Source: Synechococcus sp. UW179A
GTDB lineage: Bacteria > Cyanobacteriota > Cyanobacteriia > PCC-6307 > Cyanobiaceae
Assembly (NCBI RefSeq): GCF_900473965.1
Contig: NZ_UCNJ01000005.1
Location: forward strand, 1 to 64,000
DNA length: 64,000 bases
Direction of reading: 5' to 3'
Of the stretch, positions 56,906-62,916 are shown one piece after another. The position numbers were made by a program, and so were the translations under genes. Within the stretch, counting starts at the first letter, position 1. Each line of letters opens with the position of its first letter. The notes beneath the pieces are model-generated. The model made no database searches and was not told the DNA's origin. It worked only from the letters and a program-made list of their open reading frames with translations.

Positions 56906-58321
56906 ATGAGCAAGAAGTACGACGCCGGGGTAAAGGAGTACAGAGACACTTACTGGACTCCTGATTACGTCCCCCTAGACACTGACCTGCTGGCCTGCTT
57001 CAAGTGCACCGGCCAGGAAGGTGTGCCCAAGGAAGAGGTTGCCGCTGCTGTGGCTGCGGAATCCTCTACAGGCACCTGGTCCACCGTGTGGTCCGAGCTC
57101 CTCACCGATCTCGATTTCTACAAGGGCCGCTGCTACCGCATCGAAGATGTCCCTGGAGACAAGGAGTCTTTCTATGCCTTCATCGCTTACCCGCTCGATC
57201 TGTTCGAAGAGGGTTCTATCACCAATGTTCTGACCTCACTGGTCGGTAACGTTTTCGGTTTCAAGGCTCTGCGGCACCTACGTCTTGAAGATCTGCGGTT
57301 CCCGATTGCTTTCATCAAGACCTGCTACGGCCCCCCGAACGGCATCTGCGTCGAGCGCGACCGGATGAACAAGTACGGCCGTCCTCTGCTGGGTTGCACC
57401 ATCAAGCCGAAACTCGGGCTGAGCGGTAAAAACTACGGCCGTGTGGTCTATGAGTGCCTGCGTGGCGGTCTGGACTTCACCAAAGATGACGAGAACATCA
57501 ACTCCCAGCCTTTCCAGCGTTGGCAGAACCGTTTCGAGTTCGTCGCCGATGCCATCAAGCTGTCTGAGCAGGAGACCGGCGAGCGCAAGGGTCACTACCT
57601 CAACGTGACCGCCAACACTCCCGAGGAGATGTACGAGCGCGCTGAGTTCGCCAAAGAACTCGGCATGCCGATCATCATGCACGACTTCATCACCGGTGGC
57701 TTCACCGCCAACACCGGACTGTCGAAGTGGTGCCGCAAAAACGGCATGTTGCTGCACATTCACCGTGCAATGCACGCGGTGATCGACCGTCATCCCAAGC
57801 ACGGCATCCACTTCCGCGTTCTCGCCAAGTGTTTACGACTCTCCGGTGGTGACCAGCTTCACACCGGCACCGTGGTCGGCAAGCTCGAAGGTGATCGTCA
57901 GACCACCCTCGGATACATCGACCAGCTGCGCGAATCATTCGTGCCTGAAGACCGCAGCCGCGGCAACTTCTTCGATCAGGACTGGGGTTCCATGCCTGGC
58001 GTGTTTGCAGTTGCTTCCGGCGGTATCCACGTGTGGCACATGCCTGCACTGGTGGCGATCTTCGGTGACGACTCCGTTCTGCAGTTCGGTGGTGGTACCC
58101 ACGGTCACCCCTGGGGCTCCGCTGCAGGTGCTGCTGCCAACCGTGTGGCCCTCGAGGCCTGCGTTAAGGCACGCAATGCCGGTCGCGAGATCGAGAAAGA
58201 AAGCCGCGACATCCTTATGGAAGCCGGCAAGCACAGCCCTGAGCTGGCGATCGCTCTCGAGACATGGAAGGAGATCAAGTTCGAGTTCGACACCGTCGAC
58301 AAGCTTGACGTTCAGAACTGA
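56906..58321 (+). CDS. cbbL: RuBisCO large subunit, form IA
   Basis: 471 aa. Catalytic sequences [17 protein letters not shown] (active-site Lys), [17 protein letters not shown] (carbamylated Lys and Mg ligands), [12 protein letters not shown] and loop 6 [10 protein letters not shown] are intact. The N-terminus [17 protein letters not shown] is the form IA, proteobacterial-like type used with alpha-carboxysomes. Carboxylates RuBP in the carboxysome lumen. SD GGAG upstream. Confidence 0.98.
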
Positions 58322-58380
58322 TCGCAACCACGGCCGGTTGATTGAACCGGCCACCTCTTTTACTTACACCCAGGATCCCC

Positions 58381-58722
58381 ATGCCTTTCCAGAGCACCGT
58401 GGGTGACTACAAAACAGTCGCCACCCTGGAGACCTTCGGCTTTCTTCCGCCGATGACCCAGGACGAGATCTACGACCAGATCGCCTACATCATTGCCCAG
58501 GGTTGGAGCCCGCTCATCGAGCACGTCCACCCCAGCAACTCCATGGCCACCTATTGGTCTTATTGGAAGCTGCCCTTCTTTGGTGAGAAGGACCTCAATG
58601 TTGTTGTGAATGAGCTCGAGGGTTGCCATCGCGCCTACCCCGACCATCACGTGCGCATCGTCGGTTACGACGCCTACACCCAGAGCCAGGGTGCTTGCTT
58701 TGTGGTGTTCGAAGGACGCTAA
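58381..58722 (+). CDS. cbbS: RuBisCO small subunit, form IA
   Basis: 113 aa from the ATG at 58381 (frame opens at 58342). MPFQSTVGDYKTVATLETFGFLPPM, HPSNSMATYWSYWKLPFFGEKD and VRIVGYDAYTQSQGACFVV fit form IA small subunits. Lies 59 bp after cbbL. A terminator-like hairpin follows 20 bp after its stop. Confidence 0.97.
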   Translation: MPFQSTVGDYKTVATLETFGFLPPMTQDEIYDQIAYIIAQGWSPLIEHVHPSNSMATYWSYWKLPFFGEKDLNVVVNELEGCHRAYPDHHVRIVGYDAYTQSQGACFVVFEGR

Positions 58723-58742
58723 TCCTTCGAACCTTTGGTTCC

Positions 58743-58778
58743 GAGCCCTGATCTGAGTTCAGGGCTCCAGATTTTTTT
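58743..58778 (+). terminator. Intra-operon rho-independent terminator-like hairpin
   Basis: Perfect 9-bp stem GAGCCCTGA/TCAGGGCTC with a 7-nt loop, followed after 4 nt by seven T. Lies between cbbS and csoS2. It probably ends a share of transcripts so that RuBisCO mRNA exceeds shell and linker mRNA, or stabilises the cbbLS 3' end. Confidence 0.75.
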
Positions 58779-58823
58779 CGGGAGCATCAGCTCCTAGCTC
58801 TTCGACGACTTCACCGGGCGGAC

Positions 58824-61145
58824 ATGGCAAGACTTTCCAGTCGAGAACTCGCACTTGAGCGCCGCAAAGCGCTGACGACCTCCGGCAAGAAGGCGTCTGC
58901 CGCCGCCGGTGGTAACAACCGTGTGCGCACTGTGACCGATGCCCGGCCTACCCGAACGGAAGTCACGGCAGTGAGCGAACCCGCGGCGACTGCTCCTGTA
59001 ACGGCCGCTCCCCAACGTGCGGCCTCTCTCACTCGGTCGCCCGCACGCTCCCAGAGTTCAAACGCGAAAGCGCTGCGCAATCCCAGCCGCGATCTGGTGC
59101 TGTCCCGTCGTGAAGCCTTATCTCGCCGCGGCAAGACCGCAGCATCCAGCCGCGACCGCAACCGTGCTGATGTGGCACGCGAAGCTCCGGCCGCTGCAGC
59201 GGTTGTTGCTGCTGAAAAAGTTGACCGTCCAGCCGTCACCGTTGAGCTGACATCGCGCTCCGCTGATCGCCGTTCCGGTCTTGAACGCCGCTCAGTCACC
59301 CCCAAGAGACGTTCTATTGAAAATCCCAGCCGTGCCCTGGTGCTGGCCCGTCGTGATGCCATGTCAAAACATGGCAAAACCGCAGGTAAGCAGCCCACCA
59401 GTGCAGCCGCTGTGGCCCGTCAGGCCAATCCTGATCTCTCCAGCCGGGAGATCGCTCAACAGGTGCGTGAGCTGCGGGCCAAAGCCGGTGCGATCAGCAA
59501 GCAGAACGCTGGCGTTACCCGTCCCACCGGCCCAAATCGCCACGGTGCCAAGCAGGCTGCCGCCGCTGATGCTCACTGGAAAGTGGGAGAAAGCACGACG
59601 CCATCCGGACAGACCGTGACCGGGACCCAGGCCAACCGCTCGTTGAAGACCACCGGTAACGAGGCCAGCACCTGCCGCTCCATCACCGGAACCGAGTACC
59701 TCGGAGCTGAAGTTTTCCAGACGTTCTGTCAGCAGGCCCCCGTGCCCACCACACCCGCCAAGGTGAGAGTCACGGCCACAAGTCACGGCAACCGTGTGAC
59801 CGGTAATGAAGTGGGTCGATCGGGCAAGGTCACGGGCGATGAGCCTGGTACTTGCAAGAGCGTGACTGGCACGGAGTACATGTCCGCCAATCAGTCCGCT
59901 GCCTACTGCGGTGGTTCCAACCCCTCCCCTCGCAAGGTCGGTCACAGCCTCACCCTTGAGGGCCGCCCCGTGAGTGGTGTGATGGTGGGCCGTTCCGCCA
60001 GCGTCACCGGCGATGAAGCCGGAGCCAACAGCAGCCTCACCGGAGATCAGTACCTCGGTTCAGATCCCCTCCCCGATGGTCGACCAGCCTCGAAGGTCGG
60101 TCTGTCCGCCACTCTTTCAGGCACGGGAGTGACCGGCACATTGGTTGGTCGTTCCTCCCAAGTGACCGGTGATGAGTTCGGATCCTGCCATCGTGTGACC
60201 GGTGATCAGTACATCAGCTCTGAACAGGTCAATAGCTTCTGCGGAGCACAACCTGACCCCGAGGCGGCCAAGGTCGGTTTCAGCATTACCAACCGCAATC
60301 AAGTAGTGAGCGGCACCCGTACGGGTCGTTCCGAGCGCGTGACCGGTGATGAGCCCGGCAGCTGTCAGGCCGTGACCGGAACGCCCTATGCAGGTCTCGA
60401 GCAGGCAGGTCAGCATTGCGGAACTCCTGCTGTCCAGGCGATCAGAGAACGCACACCTGTGCGTCCTGGCACACCTTCCGCCGCCATGACCGGCATCCAA
60501 CCCGGTGTGGGCGGAGTGATGACCGGTGATCAGCGTGGTGCCTGTGAAGCGGTGACGGGTACTCCCTATGTGGGTGCAGACCAGCTGGCTGCAGCCTGCG
60601 GTGCAGAGGCTCCGGCCGGCACCGACACGCATGGTCAATCGCCCGAAGGTGCCGCCTGGACTCGTTTCAGCGTGATGTCACCAGCTCGTGCTGCTCAGCA
60701 ACAGCGTGATGCCCAGGGTTCCGTTACTGGAACCTCCTATGAGCAGGGCAATCGCATCACCGGCCCTTTTGACATGGCCGGTGGCAAGGTCACCGGCACC
60801 GAGCAGTTTCGCTTTGACAACCGTGACTTTCAGCGCCGGCACTTCCAGCCCACAGTGGCCGTTGTCAGTGAGCCTGCGGATCAACCAACCTCTCGGGTAA
60901 CGGGTGAGGGCTCCTCCACCAAGGTCACAGGAGACGACTGGGATCGTGGCGAGCATGTCACCGGTACCGAGGGTGCTTCAGCCCGTCGCCGCAACCCCAG
61001 CCGTCCCGGTCCCATGGGAGCCATGGCTCCGTTCGAGCGCAAGCGAAATGAGCAGGCCGAGTGGCCCGTCTGCCGTGTGACCGGATCCCATGGCAACACC
61101 GACAAAGGCTCACTGATCACCGTCTCCGGCGGCGCAAGGGGCTGA
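58824..61145 (+). CDS. csoS2: Carboxysome assembly linker protein CsoS2
   Basis: 773 aa, intrinsically disordered. N-terminal region has RuBisCO-binding repeats at about 5-24, 86-106, 167-187 and a looser one at 203-223 (pattern RxLxLxRRxAxxxxGKxA). Six middle repeats of about 50 aa from residue 253 to about 600 carry VTG(T/N/D)E-type motifs and mostly a CxxVTG...C pair; repeat 3 lacks both Cys (GANSSLTGDQY). C-terminal region with VTGTE, ITG and the conserved ITVSGGARG end. Bridges RuBisCO to the shell. Confidence 0.96.
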   Translation: MARLSSRELALERRKALTTSGKKASAAAGGNNRVRTVTDARPTRTEVTAVSEPAATAPVTAAPQRAASLTRSPARSQSSNAKALRNPSRDLVLSRREALSRRGKTAASSRDRNRADVAREAPAAAAVVAAEKVDRPAVTVELTSRSADRRSGLERRSVTPKRRSIENPSRALVLARRDAMSKHGKTAGKQPTSAAAVARQANPDLSSREIAQQVRELRAKAGAISKQNAGVTRPTGPNRHGAKQAAAADAHWKVGESTTPSGQTVTGTQANRSLKTTGNEASTCRSITGTEYLGAEVFQTFCQQAPVPTTPAKVRVTATSHGNRVTGNEVGRSGKVTGDEPGTCKSVTGTEYMSANQSAAYCGGSNPSPRKVGHSLTLEGRPVSGVMVGRSASVTGDEAGANSSLTGDQYLGSDPLPDGRPASKVGLSATLSGTGVTGTLVGRSSQVTGDEFGSCHRVTGDQYISSEQVNSFCGAQPDPEAAKVGFSITNRNQVVSGTRTGRSERVTGDEPGSCQAVTGTPYAGLEQAGQHCGTPAVQAIRERTPVRPGTPSAAMTGIQPGVGGVMTGDQRGACEAVTGTPYVGADQLAAACGAEAPAGTDTHGQSPEGAAWTRFSVMSPARAAQQQRDAQGSVTGTSYEQGNRITGPFDMAGGKVTGTEQFRFDNRDFQRRHFQPTVAVVSEPADQPTSRVTGEGSSTKVTGDDWDRGEHVTGTEGASARRRNPSRPGPMGAMAPFERKRNEQAEWPVCRVTGSHGNTDKGSLITVSGGARG

Positions 61146-61152
61146 TTCGCAA

Positions 61153-62916
61153 ATGGTTCGCTCCATGCCTTCCCGTGGCGGGCGACCTCTTGCGCCCACA
61201 GCTCCCACTCGCCGCCAGCTCCAGGCATCCCTGGCTCAGGACACTGCCAGCGTTGAATCCTCTTCACCAGGTGGGGGTCGTTCAATTGCTGGCAGCACTG
61301 TCCGGCAATCGGCTCTTCAACGCCGCCAGGCCCTGACCACATCCGGTAAGGCAGCTCTGCCAGAGGGTGGTTCTGTTTCAGGTGGACGCATCCGTTCCCA
61401 GGCTGACCGACGTCGCCCCACTCCCCAGCAGCCCGGCTGGGTCAAGCGTGGAGAGTCCAGGACTTCTGTCGCCGTGAATCTCAGCAGAACATCCCTTCCC
61501 TGGTCAGTGGAGTCCCATCCGCTGACCGATCAGGAGGCCAATGAACGCCTTAAGGCCTATGAGCTGGAGGTGAAGGGTCGCTTCGATCGAATTGTTCCGC
61601 TGTTGAAGCAGGTCTCCGCTCTGCAGCACGAACCTGATTTTTTGGTGCAGGCTCAGCGGCTTGCCCGCGCGGAGCTTGGGTTCGATCTTCCCGATCACAT
61701 CCTTGAGAAGTCATGGGTGAGACCTCTCGATATGCGCGCACTGTTTGCATGGTGCGTCTTCCAGTCCCACCAGTTGTTCAGTGACCGTTTTTTCCAGGAC
61801 GACCCCCTAGAAGCCGCTGCTGGTAGCCGGTCTTCAGAGGAATTCAATACATTCCTTCTCGATTGCGGTTTTCATCTGCTTGACGTCACGCCTTGCGCCG
61901 ATGGTCGCTTGGCTCACACGATCGCCTACGCACTGAGAATTCCTTTCAGTGCTGTGCGACGTCGTTCTCACGCAGGTGCGATGTTTGATGTTGAGAACAC
62001 CGTCAATCGCTGGATCAAGACCGAGCATCGCCGTTTCCGCGAGCAGGTGCCGAATGAGGCGCATTCGCCAACGCGGTACTTAAAGGTGGTGGCTTATCAC
62101 TTCAGCTCTCTCGATCCGACGCATCAGGGTTGTGCGGCCCACGGCAGCGATGACTCCCTGGCGGCTGCCTCGGGTCTGCAGCGTCTGCATGACTTCCGTG
62201 AAGCAGTTGAGAACAGCTTCTGCTGTGGTGCTTCGGTTGACTTGCTCCTGGTCGGCCTAGACACGGACACCGATGCCATTCGTGTTCATGTTCCTGATCA
62301 GGACGGTGGGATCCTTCTGGATCAGTGGCTCTGTGCCCGGGCGCTGTATGAGAGCACCGCTCCGCTGACGGTGCAACAGGCCAGGGATGCCGTCCAGGCC
62401 GCTGTGCAGACCCATGTGTCGTCTGCTCCCGATGAGGGCATGGTTCGGTTCATCACACGGCTGCTTGTCAGCAACATCTCCCAGCAGGATTATGTCCGCT
62501 CGCTTCATCACGGTCCCTACCCGGATGCAGGGCATGCGGAGCGTTTCATCGGGGTCGGCATCGGCTTCAAGGAGGTGCACCTTCGCAACCTCACCTATTT
62601 CGCCCATCTCGACACCGTTGAGCAGGGAGCTCCGGATCTTGATGTGGGTGTGAAAATCTTCAAGGGGCTCAATGTCGCCCGCGATCTGCCGGTTCCTGTC
62701 GTCGTGCGTTTCGATTACTCCGGCAAGGTTCCCGGTGCACGGGAGCGTGCCATTGCCGATTGCCGTCGAATTCAGAAGGCCATCGATGAGCGTTATTCAG
62801 CGCTCGTCAGCGAAGGTCTTCTTCACACACTTCTCACCATCCGTGACCGTGACCAGCCCCTTCCGGCGGTGGCGGTAGGTTCCACACTCGATCCCGTCCA
62901 GCAGGAGGCTCACTGA
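61153..62916 (+). CDS. csoSCA: Carboxysomal carbonic anhydrase CsoSCA
   Basis: 587 aa. Beta-type (epsilon-class) carbonic anhydrase for CO2 release inside the carboxysome. Zn ligands Cys248, His316 and Cys327 with the Asp250-Arg252 dyad (TPCADGRLAHT; YHFSSL...GCAAHG). Their spacing matches the known enzyme. The N-terminal 110 residues are disordered and basic, and hold ALQRRQALTTSGKAAL (54-69), like CsoS2 N-repeats. Starts 7 nt after csoS2. Confidence 0.95.
   Translation: MVRSMPSRGGRPLAPTAPTRRQLQASLAQDTASVESSSPGGGRSIAGSTVRQSALQRRQALTTSGKAALPEGGSVSGGRIRSQADRRRPTPQQPGWVKRGESRTSVAVNLSRTSLPWSVESHPLTDQEANERLKAYELEVKGRFDRIVPLLKQVSALQHEPDFLVQAQRLARAELGFDLPDHILEKSWVRPLDMRALFAWCVFQSHQLFSDRFFQDDPLEAAAGSRSSEEFNTFLLDCGFHLLDVTPCADGRLAHTIAYALRIPFSAVRRRSHAGAMFDVENTVNRWIKTEHRRFREQVPNEAHSPTRYLKVVAYHFSSLDPTHQGCAAHGSDDSLAAASGLQRLHDFREAVENSFCCGASVDLLLVGLDTDTDAIRVHVPDQDGGILLDQWLCARALYESTAPLTVQQARDAVQAAVQTHVSSAPDEGMVRFITRLLVSNISQQDYVRSLHHGPYPDAGHAERFIGVGIGFKEVHLRNLTYFAHLDTVEQGAPDLDVGVKIFKGLNVARDLPVPVVVRFDYSGKVPGARERAIADCRRIQKAIDERYSALVSEGLLHTLLTIRDRDQPLPAVAVGSTLDPVQQEAH

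Follow-up and report, generated by a model that had tools for sequence, protein, structure and literature searches.

The N-repeat of the carboxysome scaffold protein CsoS2 was reportedly described by Oltrogge et al. in 2020. A 2023 paper, cited below as PMC10614612, is presumably that of Blikstad et al.

As printed, the RuBisCO-binding motif of CsoS2 is R-x5-RR-x6-GK (PMC10614612). The available parts of that paper also place the motif in “a handful” of sequences of CsoSCA, the carboxysomal carbonic anhydrase, which are attributed to Prochlorococcus, “suggesting an evolutionary relationship”. In Halothiobacillus, a CsoSCA peptide is described there whose RuBisCO site overlaps with the CsoS2 site, although its motif and binding mode differ; the two proteins share one site and compete. 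For proteobacteria, the same parts report no convincing conserved CsoSCA motif. A 2025 study, in its accessible text, attributes the encapsulation of CsoSCA in Halothiobacillus to interactions with the shell (PMC12646314). CsoSCA is hexameric in a Cyanobium structure, as given in the available portion of PMC11086599.

The route by which carbonic anhydrase enters cyanobacterial α-carboxysomes is unsettled, as the contact described in the available parts of PMC10614612 is proteobacterial and relies on a motif that lacks conservation between species. The core idea of a CsoS2 motif in CsoSCA is in print. New here are a two-part module, its specific likeness to the first CsoS2 repeat (N1), its near-fixation in two genera, its absence from loci labelled Prochlorococcus (28/28), the selection on it and its apparent losses. 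Within the literature searched (preprints and most subscription papers lay outside it), the available texts make no mention of the downstream block, N1 specificity, the spread in Synechococcus or the losses.

The CsoSCA tail and its N-repeat-like segment

The window, which is the whole stretch of 64,000 nucleotides analysed from Synechococcus sp. UW179A, carries part of a cso operon, with the order cbbL, cbbS, csoS2 and csoSCA (56906-62916), with more small genes after csoSCA (Table 1). The csoSCA start codon is the ATG at 61153, and the tails of 21 aligned relatives all start with MVR or MVW. Three Pfam domains were matched, each above cut-off (PF20687, E 2e-41; PF20686, E 3e-116; PF08936, E 2e-53). 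CsoSCA_N, CsoSCA_cat and CsoSCA_C span residues 122-577, and structure 8thm aligns from residue 121 on. The folded part begins at residue 122, with residues 1-121 forming an extra N-terminal tail. The published cyanobacterial element PTAPx[R/K]R occurs in this tail as PTAPTRR (residues 15-21).

Table 1 Features of the cso operon in the window, with the basis of each assignment
Feature	Position	Strand	Basis
cbbL, form IA RuBisCO large subunit	56906..58321	+	Alignment to 1svd, 7smk, 6uew
cbbS, RuBisCO small subunit	58381..58722	+	Alignment to 1svd_M
csoS2, carboxysome scaffold, 773 aa, directly upstream of csoSCA	58824..61145	+	8wxb_Y match E 3.5e-229; Pfam CsoS2_M
CsoS2 N-repeat 1 (N1) RELALERRKALTTSGK	58842..58889	+	R-x5-RR-x6-GK match, profile
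CsoS2 block after N1, RVRTVTDAR	58920..58946	+	R[VILT]Rxxx[DE] pattern
CsoS2 N-repeat 2 (N2) RDLVLSRREALSRRGK	59088..59135	+	Repeat search
CsoS2 N-repeat 3 (N3) RALVLARRDAMSKHGK	59331..59378	+	Repeat search
csoSCA, carboxysomal β-carbonic anhydrase, 587 aa	61153..62916	+	ORF, Pfam, 8thm alignment
CsoSCA PTAPTRRQLQ, residues 15-24	61195..61224	+	Contains published cyanobacterial PTAPx[R/K]R element; pN/pS 0.13
CsoSCA N-repeat-like 16-mer RQSALQRRQALTTSGK, residues 51-66	61303..61350	+	Full R-x5-RR-x6-GK match; CsoS2-only profile
CsoSCA second shared block GRIRSQADRRR, residues 78-88	61384..61416	+	Counterpart of N1's RVRTVTDAR
CsoSCA QPGWVKR, residues 93-99, further conserved island	61429..61449	+	pN/pS 0.24

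The first-pass annotation had claimed that RRQALTTSGK in the tail nearly equals a peptide in N1. The claim is borne out, as the 16-mer around it is identical to N1 at 12/16 positions and has the full consensus, both CsoSCA RQSALQRRQALTTSGK and N1 RELALERRKALTTSGK fitting R-x5-RR-x6-GK. The span given for it, 61306-61365, corresponds to residues 52-71 and was right within a few residues, the decapeptide actually lying at residues 57-66 (61321-61350).

When the 121-residue tail is shuffled 200,000 times, the strict pattern arises in 117 cases. Aligned to N1 without gaps, the tail has at best the 12/16 given above, and among 50,000 shuffled tails the highest value is 10, seen once.

A profile was built from 19 CsoS2 repeats only, with no CsoSCA among them. 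Searched against the window's whole genome, it gave four matches at E ≤ 10, three of them to the CsoS2 repeats, all with E 7.9e-10 or better, and the fourth to CsoSCA with E 1.3e-4. When the same profile was applied to 31 genomes of the genus, CsoSCA frames ranked next under the CsoS2 repeats, and the first match that was neither had an E-value of 0.002. On a repeat matrix, the three CsoS2 repeats and CsoSCA are the sole sites above 6 bits among 72,086 16-mers of the window. Other motif-bearing proteins above 6 bits were found neither in the window (frames of at least 40 aa) nor in the 18 kb that follow on the contig.

The CsoSCA 16-mer scores 28.0 bits on the N-repeat matrix, below every one of the 96 CsoS2 repeats used (37.2-52.4), so that it may bind more weakly. 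CsoS2 has several N-repeats, and each CsoSCA chain has one in 48/48 genomes; any multivalency would therefore come from the oligomer. AlphaFold2 places a helix at CsoSCA residues 49-65, with pLDDT under 50 throughout the helix.

When the tail was compared with its own CsoS2 by Smith-Waterman alignment, nine of ten motif-bearing genomes beat the highest shuffle, some narrowly, and L127 failed to do so (70 vs 84). Because of this failure and the narrow margins, this one-pair comparison carries less weight than the profile tests.

Likeness to N1 in two blocks

The first strict match in each CsoS2 was taken as N1, the second as N2 and the third as N3; in 1 of 48 genomes, the second match starts like N3. 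N1 is the repeat nearest to the CsoSCA 16-mer in all 48 genomes in which both genes were read. The mean identity of the 16-mer is 11.7/16 to N1, 8.0/16 to N2 and 7.1/16 to N3, and with the five consensus positions excluded it is 6.7/11, 3.0/11 and 2.1/11, respectively. An acidic residue follows the first R in N1 (48/48) and N2 (47/48), but only in 3/48 CsoSCA.

The likeness extends beyond the 16-mer. A block R[VI]RxxxD stands about 10 residues downstream of it in both N1 and CsoSCA. In its broader form R[VILT]Rxxx[DE], the block follows N1 in 88 of the 88 cyanobacterial CsoS2 examined, and R[VILT]RxxxD is present in 45/48 CsoSCA, vs 113 of 24,000 shuffled versions of these 30 residues. An R[VILT]R no more than 30 residues on is found in all CsoSCA and after all N1 (48/48 each), but after no N2 (0/48) and few N3 (2/48). 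The gap from GK to the block is 12 residues in 48/48 CsoSCA and 9-11 residues in N1.

A profile of 21 CsoSCA tails was also compared with all PDB sequences, and its three best matches were CsoS2 chains, namely 8wxb (E 5.7e-5) and two CsoS2B sequences (E 0.015 and 0.074). The RuBisCO-CsoS2 N-peptide fusion 6uew was among the weak matches with an E-value of 0.96, not significant alone. In the CsoS2B chains 8b12 and 9ly8, taken here to be from Halothiobacillus, one repeat has a similar block, GRVRPQQ, after it.

As read from the sequences, what is shared with N1 is a module in two parts, about 35-40 residues long and more than a decapeptide. That both parts are common to N1 and CsoSCA favours common descent over convergence, and the CsoSCA module is most likely a homologous copy of the RuBisCO-docking module of N1. 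Like the CsoS2 N-repeat, as described in the available parts of PMC4499774 (Cai et al. 2015), it has the R-x5-RR-x6-GK consensus, with the R[VI]RxxxD block of N1 downstream. Unlike the CsoS2 N-repeat, it is a single copy in an enzyme tail and has no acidic residue after the first R in 45/48 cases.

Distribution, probable losses and selection

For its distribution, 399 genomes of the order were scanned with the tail profile. Full matches, with E 6.7e-33 or better, were obtained in 48 genomes out of 51 sampled from two genera (24/26 in the window's genus, g1, and 24/25 in another genus of the family, g9), and none in the 348 other genomes searched. Among the matches listed in module-less genomes (E 9e-9 and weaker, to 4.5e-7), nearly all are CsoS2-sized frames. 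The 48 genomes used for repeat comparison and selection overlap with these 48 but are not identical to them, as G401 and G403 are in and G319 and G355 are out.

Among 35 named loci, collected in a search that was seeded with the window's protein and thus favours near relatives, the motif occurs in 7/7 labelled Synechococcus, all of the window's genus, and 0/28 labelled Prochlorococcus. The module and the ‘handful’ in the available parts of PMC10614612 have the same 16-residue consensus, and both sit in cyanobacterial CsoSCA tails; unlike that handful, attributed to Prochlorococcus, the module is found here in 48/51 genomes of two genera and in no Prochlorococcus-labelled locus.

The motif was in none of 38 loci read from other genera (L165-L202). 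Since the other α-cyanobacterial genera sampled have no N-repeat in CsoSCA, other elements must suffice there. An island RGTRARA is common to the N-repeat-less CsoSCA tails of L006, L010, L011, L017, L020 and L029, and KVLRQRELA is common to those of L004, L008 and L022; either island might be a further docking element. Cyanobium-like tails were searched for remnants of the module, and none are supported, the Smith-Waterman score against the own CsoS2 falling under the highest of 300 shuffles in 11/11 genomes. Two proteobacterial CsoSCA loci were reached, both from plasmids and both without the motif.

Three genomes of the two genera deviate. In G055 and G056 (g1), PTAPTRRQLQ runs straight into QPAWVRR or QPAWIRR, and the whole module is absent. 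In G035 (g9), the 16-mer is absent, with PTAPTRRQLQ, the GRVR block and QPGWVRR kept. All three retain CsoSCA and three strict CsoS2 repeats. Two sublineages thus live without the repeat, which is therefore not indispensable.

In a CsoSCA tree of 92 rows, G055/G056 and G035 fall among repeat-bearing rows. The repeat trait requires 4 changes on this tree, 3 of which are forced by starred branches. The two genera as one clade, with one gain and two losses, are not rejected (p-AU 0.343, on 90 rows with the long rows L181 and L061 left out). With this placement and an unrejected single clade, the absences are likely two losses by in-frame deletion. A gain in the two genera and a loss in Prochlorococcus would both be compatible with the unrooted CsoSCA tree.

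In the same tree, the g1 loci L134 and L123-L126 (G076, G004, G012, G018 and G020) cluster with g9. This may reflect exchange of the cso operon between lineages.

Selection was assessed by pN/pS over 48 distinct sequences, in which pS is high (about 0.7), so that only contrasts are trustworthy. The 16-mer has a pN/pS of 0.24, indicating purifying selection, as against 0.87 for the preceding linker and 0.18 for the folded enzyme. The three tail linkers are at 0.87, 0.73 and 0.79, and the other tail parts are at 0.13 (PTAPTRRQLQ), 0.24 (QPGWVKR), 0.45 (the R[IV]R block) and 0.53 (the spacer before it). Residues R51, R57, R58, A60, L61, G65, K66, A68, R79 and R81 are invariant in 48/48 CsoSCA. 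PTAPTRRQLQ and QPGWV[KR]R are two other strongly conserved tail islands in both genera.

At the DNA level, recent gene conversion from csoS2 is unsupported. Codons of identical residues agree in 180/562 cases within the own genome (0.320), vs 8,667/26,701 in pairs from other genomes (0.325). With codon agreement at background, copying, if it happened, would be old, the protein being held by selection. Covariation of position 14 with the own N1 is likewise unsupported; the two are equal in 20/48 genomes, and 4,890 of 5,000 shuffles reach that number. A pair of TIVGK (N1) and ATVGK (CsoSCA) endings in G140 (L163) resembled co-evolution, but is a single case.

A docking model and its alternatives

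We propose, with a probability of about 0.75, that the CsoSCA tail in marine Synechococcus carries the N1 docking module and that RuBisCO is docked in the N-repeat manner. The module would consist of the 16-residue N-repeat, which is probably helical, and the R[VI]RxxxD block about 10 residues on. The N1 region of the adjacent csoS2 would have been copied in the ancestor of the group, or earlier with loss elsewhere, after which the DNA diverged and the protein was presumably kept by selection. The helix would cover the groove formed by two CbbL subunits and CbbS, where its arginines could make cation-π and salt-bridge contacts. Carbonic anhydrase would thereby be retained within the condensate of RuBisCO and CsoS2 and be packaged into carboxysomes. 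A CsoSCA hexamer would present six such stickers per particle. We infer the helix, the binding, its site and mode, the role in encapsulation, and the direction and route of transfer.

The partner surface was read by alignment. The residues of the docking groove are CbbL F71, D98, S344, F345 and G361 and CbbS Y99, the last equivalent to Halothiobacillus Y96. D98, S344, F345, G361 and Y99 are kept, and Tyr72 of Halothiobacillus CbbL is Phe here. At this position (cbbL codon 71), Phe was found in 113 of 115 loci, Tyr in one, and one was not read; the CbbS Tyr is kept in 118/118 loci (in both counts, several loci come from the same genomes). Phe is able to stack on arginine, yet provides no hydroxyl contact such as that used by R23 of Halothiobacillus CsoSCA. 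The Tyr-to-Phe change would fit the N-repeat mode better than the Halothiobacillus mode. Tyr72 has been described as conserved in α-carboxysome RuBisCO, and it is Phe in the cyanobacterial form IA read here. The kept groove residues and the competition of CsoSCA with CsoS2 in Halothiobacillus speak for the docking model. The repeat-less sublineages and other genera, the low matrix score, the rarity of the acidic residue, the unsupported covariation, the background level of codon sharing, the Smith-Waterman failure of L127, the Phe at the Tyr72 position and the shell-mediated encapsulation concluded for Halothiobacillus speak against it.

The first-pass annotation had read the shared motif as suggesting a common docking code of two cargo linkers and had pointed to a bacterial precedent. 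The code is well supported by the sequences, in that the likeness is specific to N1, goes beyond the 16-mer, is present in 48/51 genomes and is under purifying selection, but the precedent reported for Halothiobacillus uses a different motif and binding mode, and so by itself is no support for the N-repeat mode. Like the Halothiobacillus peptide PRLDLIEQA (7SMK; available parts of PMC10614612), the module sits in a disordered tail and would dock at an overlapping RuBisCO site, putatively so here. Unlike the module, that peptide has an unrelated motif and a buried hydrogen-bond mode, and its Tyr72 partner is Phe here. The PRLDLIEQA element is absent from the window's CsoSCA and from 48/48 CsoSCA.

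It is possible, although we would not favour it, that cyanobacterial CsoSCA contacts RuBisCO (or the shell) mainly through PTAPxRR, with the N-repeat as an auxiliary sticker or as an addition that the protein can do without. No other island of the tail is as constrained as PTAPTRRQLQ, which is retained in the repeat-less sublineages G055/G056 and G035, and PTAPx[R/K]R is common among CsoSCA without the repeat; the available parts of PMC10614612 put it in 87% of cyanobacterial sequences. However, the N-repeat is likewise constrained and is kept in 48/51 genomes of the two genera, and the strict PTAPx[R/K]R is present in only 24/48 N-repeat-bearing CsoSCA (a looser form in 48/48). The two contacts are moreover not mutually exclusive. 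Because PTAPTRRQLQ is more constrained, has a core pattern common without the repeat and persists where the repeat is missing, a two-sticker tail of PTAPTRRQLQ and the N-repeat with partial redundancy is quite possible.

Convergence, in which the same RuBisCO groove selected the same arginine spacing independently of any copying from CsoS2, appears unlikely. Short motifs are capable of it, codon sharing with N1 is at background, and the Halothiobacillus CsoSCA tail reaches this site via an unrelated motif, as described in the available parts of PMC10614612. On the other hand, the likeness spans about 35 residues, its two blocks come in one order with almost equal spacing, and it singles out N1 from N2 and N3; old divergence would erase codon sharing as well.

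It is quite improbable that the positive charge of the module serves to bind another partner, such as CsoS2, the shell or nucleic acid. The tail is arginine-rich, and shell contacts of Halothiobacillus CsoSCA are reported in the available parts of PMC12646314. However, the kept positions include exactly the RuBisCO-binding consensus (R51, R57, R58, G65 and K66) rather than general charge, and the groove residues of RuBisCO are largely kept. Chance or low-complexity resemblance, to which a short tail rich in R, S and A would lend itself, is contradicted by the shuffle tests, the own-genome profile search with no further non-CsoS2 match at E ≤ 10, the presence in 48/51 genomes and the low pN/pS.

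Returning to docking by the N1 module, a bolder extension is tentative. The whole module rather than just the 16-mer could be a portable docking unit whose R[VI]RxxxD block makes a second, hitherto undescribed RuBisCO contact, and in marine Synechococcus the CsoSCA oligomer could be a multivalent RuBisCO cross-linker within the condensate, both scaffold and client, with a mode taken from the neighbouring scaffold gene. If so, there would be one N1 module per subunit, and six if CsoSCA is hexameric as in Cyanobium.

The locus looks like a docking module passed from scaffold to cargo enzyme. For marine Synechococcus, the near-fixed N1-type module provides a defined candidate peptide, and the natural absences in G035 and G055/G056 provide controls. 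For work on CsoS2, a second conserved block after N1 is brought to attention. For engineering, the module might serve as a tag with which enzymes are recruited to cyanobacterial RuBisCO.

In the CsoSCA of L073 / L136 (G094), a run of short QTSNR repeats lies between the tail islands and the folded domain, which indicates that linker length can vary through small tandem repeats.
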